Virus record (IMG/VR): IMGVR_UViG_3300010368_003491
Coordinates: 1-24,483 of that record
Source of the DNA: a virus
Length of the DNA: 24,483 nt
Strand: one strand, 5' to 3'
The notes below the pieces were generated by a model. It was not told the origin of the DNA. It saw only the letters and a list, made by a program, of their open reading frames with translations, and ran no database searches. Each line of letters starts with the position of its first letter. Position 1 is the first letter of the stretch. The position numbers were made by a program, and so were the translations under genes. Positions 6,284-16,880 of this stretch are shown piece by piece.

Positions 6284-6313
6284 AAGAGGGGCATTTATTG
6301 CCCCTCTTTTTTT
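6284..6313 (+). terminator. Rho-independent terminator of gene 23
   Basis: A 9-bp GC-rich stem, AAGAGGGGC (6284-6292) with GCCCCTCTT (6300-6308), has a 7-nt loop and a T run to 6313. It ends the rightward head-gene transcript about 30 bp after the gene 23 stop. The stop codon of the convergent endonuclease gene lies in its loop. Confidence 0.9.
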
Positions 6314-7680
6314 GTCCATGTGTATATCGCAGAACCACAATCCCATATTCTGTCCCATCCATTTTCCAACATATTTTCATACTCTGTTTTTGCTTCATCA
6401 AAATATTCAAGTTTGGTTTTTAATTTGTGTTTTTGGAAAGCAACTCTTGAAAACAACGTTCTTGGATTTCTTTTGTTAAAATACCAATAATTTGGTGGTG
6501 TTAATCCAGAAAACGAAAATCCACAATGCTCATAAACTTTACCATCACCGAAACGCAAGTCTGCATATGTTATAATACTATTTGGATTTTCTATTTTTAT
6601 GAAATTGCTGAACAATTTAGATGCGCCGCCAACAACAGTAAAATCAGAATGTGATGACATTCTTGCACACTCATATTCATATTTTTTGTTATATCTTGAC
6701 TTTCCAAACGAACATGCCATAACAAGTTCTCCTTGATTGAAAAGACCATAATGATATCTTGCAGGTATAAACCCATGCATGTGATGCTCATTATGAAATT
6801 TTCTAGATTCTTCAACTGTTATACGTTTTACTTCTGTTTTTCTGGCATACACTCTTTTGTTTTTTCCATGGATGGTATTTAAAAGTTTTTTTACTTTTTC
6901 AGTATCATCACTCTCAAAAATAGTTATTAGTTTGACACCAACTTCTTCACACATTATGAATTTTTTTTGATGGTAATTACTTTTCTTTTTGCCGAAGTTT
7001 TCAGAATGCCAAACATTACCACAATACTCTATCGCAAGACTATTTTTTTTGTTGTAAATGTCCAATTCGAATGGTGTTATTATTTCTTTGGTATTATGTA
7101 TCCAATCATATTCGCCATACGTTCTTTCGCAATACTCAAACAATTCTATCTCTGCTTTGCTTCTCCAAGGTACTTCTACTTGCATATCATATTTCTTGAA
7201 CAATTTTTTAAGGTATGAGTAAGAAACCCCCAAATCATCTGCTAGTATTGTTAGAGGTTTTTTTCTGTCATATTTTTTCTCTAAAAATTCTTTGTCAAAC
7301 TGCATGTGTTCAAATTGTTTATTCTTACCGTCTCTACATGCTTCTGATAAATCCTTCAATTCTATATCGTAATTTTCTAACCATTCGTAAATTGTTTTTT
7401 GACTCACTGAATAATATTTTTCTAACGCTTTTATGGAATTTCCAGAATACATTTCTGCAAGTTCTAGTTTATTTGGCATAGACATGAATTTATGCCTATT
7501 ATTTGCCTCACTAGATGCTTGCTGTTGTGATTTCTTTTTTATGCCATAAAAATCCAACCATTTTCTAACGGTTGGATTCGATGTTTTGTAATGCCTAGAT
7601 AAAGATGAAATAGTCCCACCTTCCTTAAAATAAAGTGCTTCTATTTCATCTTTTTTTGGTATAGGTTTTTGGTGACTCAA
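6295..7680 (-). CDS. Free-standing homing endonuclease (Vsr-like, HTH repeats, C-terminal GNAT-like domain)
   Basis: A 461-residue mosaic. Three helix-turn-helix-like repeats lie near residues 20-45, 80-105 and 140-165 (each ends in W/L-x-x-Y-x-I/M). Residues about 173-275 look like a Vsr/EDxHD (PD-(D/E)XK-like) nuclease, with candidate catalytic Glu177, Asp207 in FELDIY, Glu218 in AIEYCG, His225 and His237. The rest (ITVEESRKFHNEHHMHG to the C-terminus) resembles a domain that recurs in phage endonucleases and has a GNAT-like look. The start is TTG at 7680, directly after an in-frame TAA, with AAGG about 10 nt upstream; the next in-frame Met is residue 66. It follows the 7696 gene by 15 bp. 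A site next to gene 23 is typical of mobile endonuclease genes. Family assignment is by motif only. Confidence 0.75.
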   Translation of the reverse strand: MSHQKPIPKKDEIEALYFKEGGTISSLSRHYKTSNPTVRKWLDFYGIKKKSQQQASSEANNRHKFMSMPNKLELAEMYSGNSIKALEKYYSVSQKTIYEWLENYDIELKDLSEACRDGKNKQFEHMQFDKEFLEKKYDRKKPLTILADDLGVSYSYLKKLFKKYDMQVEVPWRSKAEIELFEYCERTYGEYDWIHNTKEIITPFELDIYNKKNSLAIEYCGNVWHSENFGKKKSNYHQKKFIMCEEVGVKLITIFESDDTEKVKKLLNTIHGKNKRVYARKTEVKRITVEESRKFHNEHHMHGFIPARYHYGLFNQGELVMACSFGKSRYNKKYEYECARMSSHSDFTVVGGASKLFSNFIKIENPNSIITYADLRFGDGKVYEHCGFSFSGLTPPNYWYFNKRNPRTLFSRVAFQKHKLKTKLEYFDEAKTEYENMLENGWDRIWDCGSAIYTWTKKEGQ

Positions 7681-15232: not shown

Positions 15233-15261
15233 ATGATATCACAAAATTTTTATAATGTCAA
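15233..15261 (-). promoter_or_regulatory. Sigma70-like early promoter
   Basis: -35 TTGACA (15261-15256), a 17-nt spacer and -10 TATCAT (15238-15233) on the - strand. It overlaps the stop codon of the 2H phosphoesterase gene and drives the small gene at 15200 and the two genes after it. Confidence 0.75.
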
Positions 15262-15740
15262 TCATAATCTTCTATATCACTGACCACTATTTTATTAAAT
15301 TTTGGTCTAAATGTGGGAAGTTTTATAGTATTTGGGTCTACTGATTTTTTTGCATATGATAGAGATATATGTGGAATATATTCATCCCACGCATCTTCAA
15401 GACCCAAACTTTCATAATATTCACGTATGCCATTCAGTCCAGATGAAGAAATCGTAAATACTGGAATATCCTTATTTTCACCTAAAAACTTAATTCCAGT
15501 TATGTATACTTCTGTTGGTGACTCTGATATTGTTTGGTTTTTTAAATTTACTTCATTTGTACTATAAAATATTGTCGTATGAAAGTCAAAATCTTCTGCT
15601 TTTTGTTCACTTCCATTATAAGAAACGGTAAGGTCAAACCCATTATATTCACACCAATCTCTTAGCATTTTTTGAGATTGTTTATCGTAGTTTACTGAGA
15701 CATATTTTCTTTTTTTTGTGTAATCTTTGAATTTTTTCAT
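15258..15740 (-). CDS. 2H phosphoesterase, Acb1-like (candidate anti-CBASS nuclease)
   Basis: A 160-residue protein with the two HxT/S motifs of the 2H phosphoesterase superfamily: FHTTIFYS (His54, Thr56) and PHISLSY (His124, Ser126), about 70 residues apart. The opening YVSVNYDKQSQKMLRDW and the spacing recall T4 57B/Acb1, which degrades cyclic oligonucleotide signals of CBASS defence. Length matches Acb1 (about 150 residues). This is an inference: LigT or CPDase-type 2H enzymes share these motifs. The ATG overlaps the PAAR gene stop as ATGA, so it may be expressed from that late unit; no strong ribosome-binding site is visible. Confidence 0.65.
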   Translation of the reverse strand: MKKFKDYTKKRKYVSVNYDKQSQKMLRDWCEYNGFDLTVSYNGSEQKAEDFDFHTTIFYSTNEVNLKNQTISESPTEVYITGIKFLGENKDIPVFTISSSGLNGIREYYESLGLEDAWDEYIPHISLSYAKKSVDPNTIKLPTFRPKFNKIVVSDIEDYD

Positions 15741-16126
15741 ACTTCTATACTTGGACCCCCAATCATTACTTTTGACGAACCAGTTTTAACTTCATGATCA
15801 AAACCAGTTCCAGTATTAAATTTACTTCCTATTCTTACAGCACGTTTTCCACCTATATATACATTTGCTGCACATAAAGAAGTAGTAGGTGCATGTAATA
15901 CTGGTGCCGGAACACAAGGATCACCATTTGGATGTGAAACCATTGCATCACCTTCGACTGCCACAAGTTTACCCTCTACAAATACTTTTGTATTTGTTGT
16001 AGCAGATGTGACTTGTGTGCTTGGTGAATTCCATTTCCAATAAGGTATTGGGGCGCATAGTGAACCTTTAACCCCATCTGTGCATGAAATATCACTGAAA
16101 CCTAAAGCAAATGCAATGGATGTCAT
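15737..16126 (-). CDS. PAAR-repeat tail spike tip protein (T4 gp5.4-like)
   Basis: A 129-residue glycine- and valine-rich protein in the style of PAAR-repeat proteins that cap the central spike of contractile tails. It shows TNTKVFVEGKLVAVEGDAMV near residue 45, a HPNGDPC segment, then ANVYIGGKRAVRIGSKFN and the terminal KVMIGGPSIEV. Cys and His residues could bind the iron or zinc at the tip. T4 gp5.4 is a similar-sized PAAR protein. It is on the - strand, away from the tail-tube gene, next to PhoH. AAAGGT lies upstream of the ATG. Confidence 0.85.
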   Translation of the reverse strand: MTSIAFALGFSDISCTDGVKGSLCAPIPYWKWNSPSTQVTSATTNTKVFVEGKLVAVEGDAMVSHPNGDPCVPAPVLHAPTTSLCAANVYIGGKRAVRIGSKFNTGTGFDHEVKTGSSKVMIGGPSIEV

Positions 16127-16142
16127 TTAAATACCTTTCGTG

Positions 16143-16592
16143 TTATGCTGCTTCTAATTCTCTTTCTTTTGTTATAATGTATTCACGAACTAAACCTGAT
16201 CTTATAATGTCATCTGTGCCAAATTCGATAACATCAAAAGAAGGCATTTTATTGATTATTCTTATAAAATCACGAAGACCAGAATTGTCTTGTCTGTTTC
16301 TTGAAGATTTAAGATCGTCTTGTTTTACATCACCACAAAGAATGATTTTTGAATTTTCTCCTACACGTGTCATTACTGTATCTATTTCACCAAAGTTGCA
16401 GTTCTGGACTTCATCAAGAATGATAATTGCGTTATCAAATGTGAGACCTCTAATAAATGAAGTTGACATAAATTCTATCATTTTCTTTTGTTTTAAGATA
16501 GAATACGCATCGCCCCTTCCAAACAAATCGTTGACAATATCAGTATATGGCGCTTCATAATAACTCATTTTTTCATTCAATGAACCAGGCAT
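16143..16592 (-). CDS. phoH: PhoH-like ATPase, C-terminal part (split by in-frame TAA)
   Basis: Residues after the interruption: FMPGSLNEKMSYYEAPY, the Walker B region AIIILDEVQN and the sensor-like LCGDVKQDDL, all typical of phage PhoH-like P-loop ATPases. The reading frame is the same as the N-terminal part; only the single TAA at 16608-16610 separates them, with REQGF codons between. The ATG at 16592 falls inside the conserved GFMPGS motif, so it is probably not a native start, although GGG four nt upstream could allow weak reinitiation. Without Walker A this part alone cannot be a working ATPase. PhoH function in phages is unknown. Confidence 0.75.
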   Translation of the reverse strand: MPGSLNEKMSYYEAPYTDIVNDLFGRGDAYSILKQKKMIEFMSTSFIRGLTFDNAIIILDEVQNCNFGEIDTVMTRVGENSKIILCGDVKQDDLKSSRNRQDNSGLRDFIRIINKMPSFDVIEFGTDDIIRSGLVREYIITKERELEAA

Positions 16593-16607
16593 GAAACCCT
16601 GTTCTCT

Positions 16608-16880
16608 TTATTGGACTGCTGATCTTACGATAACAATCTTTTCATAATCATTTTGATCCATCAATTCTTCTAATGCCATATAAAGAGATACATATGTCTT
16701 ACCCGTACCAGCACTTCCGATTGCAGCAATATTTTTGCCATTATCATAACTGTCAAACAATGTATGTTGGGTTTCTGTCATAGGTTGGACACGTTTCATT
16801 GTAAATTTGTTGTTTACAACGTAATCTGTTTCTCTTTCGACTTGTGTACGCTTTTTTCTATTAAGGCGCTGTTTTGCCAT
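16608..16880 (-). CDS. phoH: PhoH-like ATPase, N-terminal part (ends at in-frame TAA)
   Basis: About 90 residues from the ATG at 16880, which has AGGAGG five nt upstream; longer in-frame starts lack this. It begins MAKQRLNRKKRTQVERE and carries the Walker A loop GSAGTGKT, ending IVIVRSAVQ at an ochre codon. In related proteins the text continues directly with a short residue run and then GFxPGS, which is exactly what follows the TAA in the same frame. The whole locus would be 245 sense codons, a normal phage PhoH length. One base change (TCA to TAA) could explain the stop; sequence error, recent inactivation or readthrough remain open. Confidence 0.75.
   Translation of the reverse strand: MAKQRLNRKKRTQVERETDYVVNNKFTMKRVQPMTETQHTLFDSYDNGKNIAAIGSAGTGKTYVSLYMALEELMDQNDYEKIVIVRSAVQ

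Follow-up and report, generated by a model that had tools for sequence, protein, structure and literature searches.

The locus described here raises the question of whether a small phage gene, lying against the gene for a spike-tip protein, encodes a member of the Acb1 family, and whether its product degrades the cyclic oligonucleotides that serve as bacterial defence signals. The window, the whole stretch of DNA that was analysed, comprises 24,483 nucleotides (positions 1 to 24,483 of IMG/VR virus record IMGVR_UViG_3300010368_003491). The original prediction named the gene a divergent Acb1-like 2H phosphoesterase and an anti-CBASS candidate. The gene runs on the minus strand of the window from 15740 to 15258, exactly where it had been placed, and encodes 160 residues; the plus strand across 15258-15740 carries many stops. 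The two H-x-[TS] motifs said to stand about 70 residues apart are present at a spacing of exactly 70 residues.

15258 to 15740, minus strand: acb1-like gene, 160 residues, 2H phosphoesterase of the Acb1 family (PF23474); assigned from the open reading frame, Pfam, the AlphaFold model and structure comparison
15573 to 15581, minus strand: first catalytic motif, H54-T55-T56 (H44 and T46 of T4 Acb1); H54 and T56 in 29/29 members
15363 to 15371, minus strand: second catalytic motif, H124-I125-S126 (H113 and T115 of T4 Acb1, with Ser for Thr); H124 and S126 in 29/29 members

A motif pair of this type is by itself modest evidence, because an H-x-[TS] pair at a spacing of 60-80 also arises in 369 of 100,000 shuffles of the window protein. 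The observation is solid because the tetrad H54, T56, H124 and S126 is identical in all 29 aligned members of the clade, the protein matches Pfam Acb1 at 49.9 bits, and purifying selection acts on the gene (dN/dS 0.06-0.34 in the nine pairs computed, with dS large in most pairs). The N-terminus likewise resembles that of T4 57B, as predicted; profile-profile alignment places residues 1-138 onto T4 Acb1 residues 1-127 with a probability of 98.7%.

The twin motifs could also belong to a general RNA-end or nucleotide-repair 2H enzyme, similar to LigT or CPDase, that serves phage nucleases and has no part in counter-defence. The Pfam Acb1 score exceeds the cut-off of 27 (residues 13-140 on profile positions 4-121 of 144), whereas the next 2H model, 2_5_RNA_ligase2 (PF13563), reaches 11.7 bits, under its cut-off of 27. 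All 29 clade members scanned match Pfam Acb1 (E <= 0.01; best 7.4e-18). The AlphaFold model of the window protein (pLDDT 91.2, pTM 0.85) has as its best solved match FBB1 Acb1 (7t26; Z 14.8, rmsd 2.4, 135 of 137 residues) and as its second-best the Acb1 of phage BCSR5 (Z 13.0), both above CPDase (Z 10.0) and LigT (Z 9.4). Foldseek matched the model to FBB1 Acb1 structures with E values of 1.4e-7 and 1.7e-7, and many BFVD hits bear the name Acb1. The structural comparison proposed with the original prediction therefore returned Acb1, and not LigT or CPDase in its place. A phmmer search of PDB with the single protein reached 7t26 at E 0.17, and at 2.7e-6 with a profile; PADLOC reported nothing. 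The window protein is thus a genuine, if divergent, 2H phosphoesterase of the Acb1 family and not a LigT or CPDase.

Several observations nonetheless speak for an RNA-end enzyme. A weak match to 2_5_RNA_ligase2 is found in 21 of the 29 members (best 2.2e-7), genes for RNase H, an exonuclease, a HAD nucleotidase and PhoH surround acb1 in relatives, and the lid and W74 of T4 Acb1 are gone. PHROG_755, which matches the window protein at 5.5e-24, is named RNA ligase, and several GenBank records use that name or 2',3'-cyclic phosphodiesterase. However, T4 Acb1 itself belongs to PHROG_755, so "RNA ligase" is an old, mistaken name for one and the same family and carries no weight. Given that both fold and profile favour Acb1, a general RNA-end function is unlikely.

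Relatives of the gene became visible with an alignment as the query. A search of IMG/VR with the single protein returned one relative, and a five-member alignment returned 44 loci. Alignment A3 holds 28 of these, the remaining 16 (L015, L019, L026, L029, L032, L033, L035, L036, L038, L040, L041, L044, L045, L048, L049 and L053) having been removed before counting because they were near-copies, ran off a contig end or had a broken frame. L052 has no C-terminus and L050 and L051 are cut at the match end, so that tail lengths rest on 26 rows. The maximum-likelihood tree contains 42 of 44 rows (L051 and L052 left out), has a midpoint root only and includes three very long branches. A branch with support 100/98 sets off a clade of 30 of the 42 rows, namely the window protein, 26 environmental proteins and three proteins of rhizobial-type phages. 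Eight T4-type proteins sit on a separate branch (support 98/95). Sampling is thin for the Vibrio and T4-type proteins, which are represented in the tree by four and eight sequences chosen by hand among the 16 and 1,449 records that tblastn listed, respectively.

The suggestion of a new branch thus stands in part: the clade is apart from T4 Acb1 in the tree, but Pfam Acb1 already matches all 29 members, and GenBank rhizobial phages carry clade genes labelled RNA ligase, hypothetical protein or 2',3'-cyclic phosphodiesterase. A literature search, with most subscription journals outside its coverage, found no paper on the branch. Two peptide patterns run against prokaryote genomes of 84,980 species gave 138 matches, none of them a relative, and no relative was found in the plasmids searched; both results say little on distant members. 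Absence from the genomes and plasmids searched indicates that the gene is phage-borne, which fits counter-defence. A megablast of the whole window against phages gave no match, and the capsid proteins nearest to that of the window are from Sinorhizobium phages (68%). The source phage is T4-related.

The substrate pocket is where the clade departs from T4 Acb1, and it bears on which signal the enzyme may accept. In T4 Acb1, according to the accessible text of PMC9117128, the catalytic residues are H44, T46, H113 and T115, the stacking residues are Y12, W74, F107 and W147, E141 contacts adenine N6 as the only base-specific contact, and residues 145-152 form a lid. The residue numbers in that text agree with the T4 57B sequence when counted along it. 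Positions were mapped from a 44-row MAFFT alignment, and clade counts refer to the window protein and 28 loci (29 rows). The following two features are involved.

15588 to 15644, minus strand: residues 33-51, longer than in T4 Acb1 by about nine residues, a feature typical of the clade; two alignments place the gap slightly differently
15258 to 15281, minus strand: C-terminal tail, S154-D155-I-E-D-Y-D and stop; by alignment the chain is over before the T4 lid (145-152)

The T4 pocket and catalytic positions correspond to Y13, H54, T56, W118, H124 and S126 of the window protein. The position of Y12 is Y or F and that of F107 is W or Y in 29/29 members. The position of W74 is L86 in the window and Leu in 27 and Phe in 2 of the 29, whereas it is W in five and F in three of the eight T4-type rows. 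MAFFT aligns E141 with S154, in a region where the alignment is uncertain by one or two residues; within that uncertainty, of the 28 rows that include the C-terminus, 25 have an acid at 155 and 26 have one at 154 or 155. Structural alignment stops near E141 (model 157-159 on FBB1 137-139). The T4 lid with W147 is absent from the window protein, whose chain ends five residues past D155. Where the end is complete (26 rows), one to seven residues remain, and the tail contains an aromatic residue in 3 of 28 rows, including Y159 of the window. The extra residues within 33-51 are well ordered in the AlphaFold model (block pLDDT 93-97).

With Leu for W74, no lid tryptophan and no clear E141, the pocket is remodelled and may shift affinity or base preference, in a direction that is unpredictable from sequence. 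The different nucleotide preference originally proposed for this branch is, from W74 to Leu and the missing clear E141, possible, though clearly the less likely outcome. A rival explanation is an Acb1-fold enzyme shifted to another cyclic signal, such as 2'3'-linked or pyrimidine-rich dinucleotides or a Panoptes-type decoy signal. The Leu in 27/29, the Ser for T115 in 29/29, the variable E141 column, the truncated lid and the additional residues at 33-51 point in this direction, and E141 is the sole base-specific contact according to the accessible text of Hobbs et al. (2022; PMC9117128). T4 Acb1 is also reported, in the accessible text of PMC12657230, to degrade 2'3'-c-di-AMP, which suggests that the Acb1 fold tolerates other linkages. 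Against a shift, the acid at 154 or 155 could replace E141, and the Y12 and F107 positions remain aromatic. Furthermore, aligned W147 is missing from four of the eight sampled T4-type sequences too, with Aes012 ending just past E141, so that lid loss is not special to the clade. A change to another signal is a plausible minority reading.

The genes next to acb1 are also to be considered, since the original prediction regarded the context as different from that in T4. Two of them lie upstream in the window.

15737 to 16126, minus strand: PAAR gene, homologous to the spike-tip protein gp5.4 of T4 by BLASTP and PHROG; 4 bases (ATGA) are common to its stop and the acb1 start
16143 to 16880, minus strand: phoH, a conserved upstream neighbour, with an in-frame stop inside a conserved stretch; from comparison with relatives

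The context does differ from T4, in which 57B lies between 57A and ipI, but it is not peculiar to this genome. Relatives have the genes in the order RNase H, a gp18603-like gene, a nucleotidase-like HAD gene, PhoH, PAAR, acb1 and a PD-(D/E)XK exonuclease. Counted over the 44 IMG/VR loci, near-copies included and with profiles seeded from the same loci, PAAR is directly upstream of acb1 in 31 of the 43 loci with enough sequence and anywhere upstream in 37/43, PhoH lies within 4 kb in 40/42, and the exonuclease lies within 1.5 kb downstream in 37/38. The block PhoH-PAAR-acb1-exonuclease is conserved and typical of the lineage. The window lacks the exonuclease, to which tblastn found no match there, and in six other database phages with a relative (L004-L009) neither PAAR nor PhoH adjoins acb1. 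PAAR and acb1 stand some 2 kb or more apart, with other sequence between them, in L028, L029, L034-L036 and L053. The phoH gene is intact in relatives such as L001, and the stop in the window copy may be a sequencing error or a real nonsense change.

Other features of the window lie outside this block. A promoter scan found 19 sigma-70-like sites compared to 17.6 in shuffles, so none of them is trusted. The motif TATAAATA occurs 9 times versus 2.69 expected, a count reached in 0 of 100 shuffles, and four plus-strand sites (2258, 3154, 3872 and 4893) stand just ahead of structural genes, as T4-type late promoters do. The TATAAATA upstream of the PhoH unit was dropped as a late promoter, as a terminator-like hairpin lies between the site and the genes. 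A homing-endonuclease-like gene (6295-7680, minus strand; phrog_3339, 2.4e-89) lies downstream of the major capsid gene and is encoded on the other strand.

The PAAR neighbour, the only PAAR protein recognised in the phage, invites the idea that Acb1 is coupled in translation to the spike-tip protein so that it can be packed into, or attached to, the tail tip and arrive with the first contact; a lidless pocket with a changed signal range would then clear alarm signals from the start. The PAAR protein matches T4 gp5.4, the tip of the central spike in PDB, by BLASTP (6e-7) and shares its PHROG. The stop/start overlap and the frequency of PAAR directly upstream (31/43) were counted for delivery, as was the finding that the only PAAR matches adjoin acb1 in five of the eight genomes or records searched (elsewhere in one, none found in two). 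In the accessible text of PMC12028318, which accepted single-peptide identifications, Acb1 was detected in particles of a Vibrio Schizotequatrovirus and immediate deployment was suggested. However, acb1 and PAAR are apart in T4 and OspM_OC, the other neighbours are replication enzymes, and T4 Acb1 activity was seen about 15 minutes into infection according to the accessible text of PMC9117128. The adjacency of PAAR and acb1 may reflect mere gene order. A search of the anti-CBASS literature for Acb1 together with PAAR found no paper containing both. Delivery with the virion is improbable.

A natural deletion bears on whether the block is essential. The Sinorhizobium phages phiM12 and phiM19 are 100% identical up to mid-phoH, and a match of 99.9% resumes about 5 kb on (phiM19 stretch L003, 4415-9455). 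This 5-kb deletion in phiM12 (L061, 13309-13566) truncates phoH and removes PAAR, acb1, an HNH gene and the exonuclease; the flanking matches overlap by 9 bases in phiM12. No match to Acb1 or PAAR was found elsewhere in phiM12. Since phiM12 is a deposited S. meliloti phage without the block, the block is dispensable on S. meliloti. Such a loss is in keeping with an accessory role in counter-defence and speaks against the gene being essential for replication or tail assembly, although several genes were lost at once.

The same loss could instead be taken as a sign that acb1 is a decayed or non-functional gene kept by linkage, as could the stop in the neighbouring phoH and the one locus of 44 in which acb1 is split by frame changes (L048, 5001-5449 of an 83-kb contig). 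That split may be decay or sequencing error, and the adjoining PAAR and exonuclease genes match unbroken. Decay is nevertheless very improbable in light of the catalytic residues, invariant in 29/29 members, and the dN/dS range of 0.06-0.34 in nine pairs.

Taken as a substrate class, the degradation of cyclic-oligonucleotide defence signals is probably the role of the gene. By homology to T4 Acb1, from which we infer the reaction, the substrate and the protection alike, the product would be a small, metal-independent 2H phosphoesterase using H54 and H124 as acid and base. In a cyclic di- or trinucleotide, the 2'-OH of an adenosine would attack the 3'-5' bond next to it, yielding a 2',3'-cyclic phosphate that would be opened in a second hydrolysis step. 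Removal of the alarm signal, of CBASS or a related system, would keep the host from abortive infection. Two observations count against this role. The neighbours are RNase H, a PD-(D/E)XK exonuclease, a nucleotidase-like HAD protein and a tail-tip PAAR protein, not known counter-defence genes, and three features that hold the base in T4 Acb1 are changed or missing (W74, Leu in 27/29; the lid tryptophan; the unconserved E141 column). If the clade is active, the destruction of cyclic oligonucleotides would be a regular trait of T4-superfamily phages well away from enteric bacteria, contrary to the view, in the accessible text of PMC11722364, that Acb1 is relatively rare and restricted. The altered pocket offers natural variants bearing on what E141, W74 and the lid contribute, and phiM19 and phiM12, one natural deletion apart at the acb1 locus, are a ready-made test system.

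Finally, the window gene represents a divergent branch within a family known for counter-defence; the pocket is altered and the gene context conserved. The protein shares with T4 Acb1 (57B, NP_049750.1) the Pfam and PHROG family, the fold, the N-terminal layout, both catalytic histidines, the first threonine and, with the pocket as described in the accessible text of PMC9117128, the aromatics at Y12 (Y13) and F107 (W118), two of the four positions that stack on bases in Acb1. The best BLASTP stretch between the two is 27/79 identical (34%). Unlike T4 Acb1, the window protein has Leu for W74, Ser for T115, no clear E141, no lid tryptophan and about nine extra residues in 33-51, and its gene adjoins PAAR rather than 57A/ipI. 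The best structural matches, the Acb1 of FBB1 (7t26 and 7t27; Z 14.8 and 14.4) and of BCSR5 (9q2g and 9q2y; Z 12.9 and 13.0), show 16-18% identity to the window protein across the structurally aligned residues. A lid is described for both, in the titles of 9q2g and 9q2y and the accessible text of PMC9117128, whereas the window protein is too short for the same lid. LigT and plant CPDase share the 2H fold and the twin H-x-[TS] motifs, but with lower Z scores (9.4-10.0) and no Pfam match over the cut-off. The closest named relatives, in the same clade and with 36-41% identity to the window protein, are from Sinorhizobium phages phiM7, phiM19 and phiN3, Rhizobium phage RHph_I1_18 and Ochrobactrum phage vB_OspM_OC. 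Phage phiM19 has the PhoH-PAAR-acb1-exonuclease order, as in the relatives of the window gene, while RHph_I1_18 and OspM_OC, unlike the window, carry acb1 without neighbouring PAAR and PhoH.
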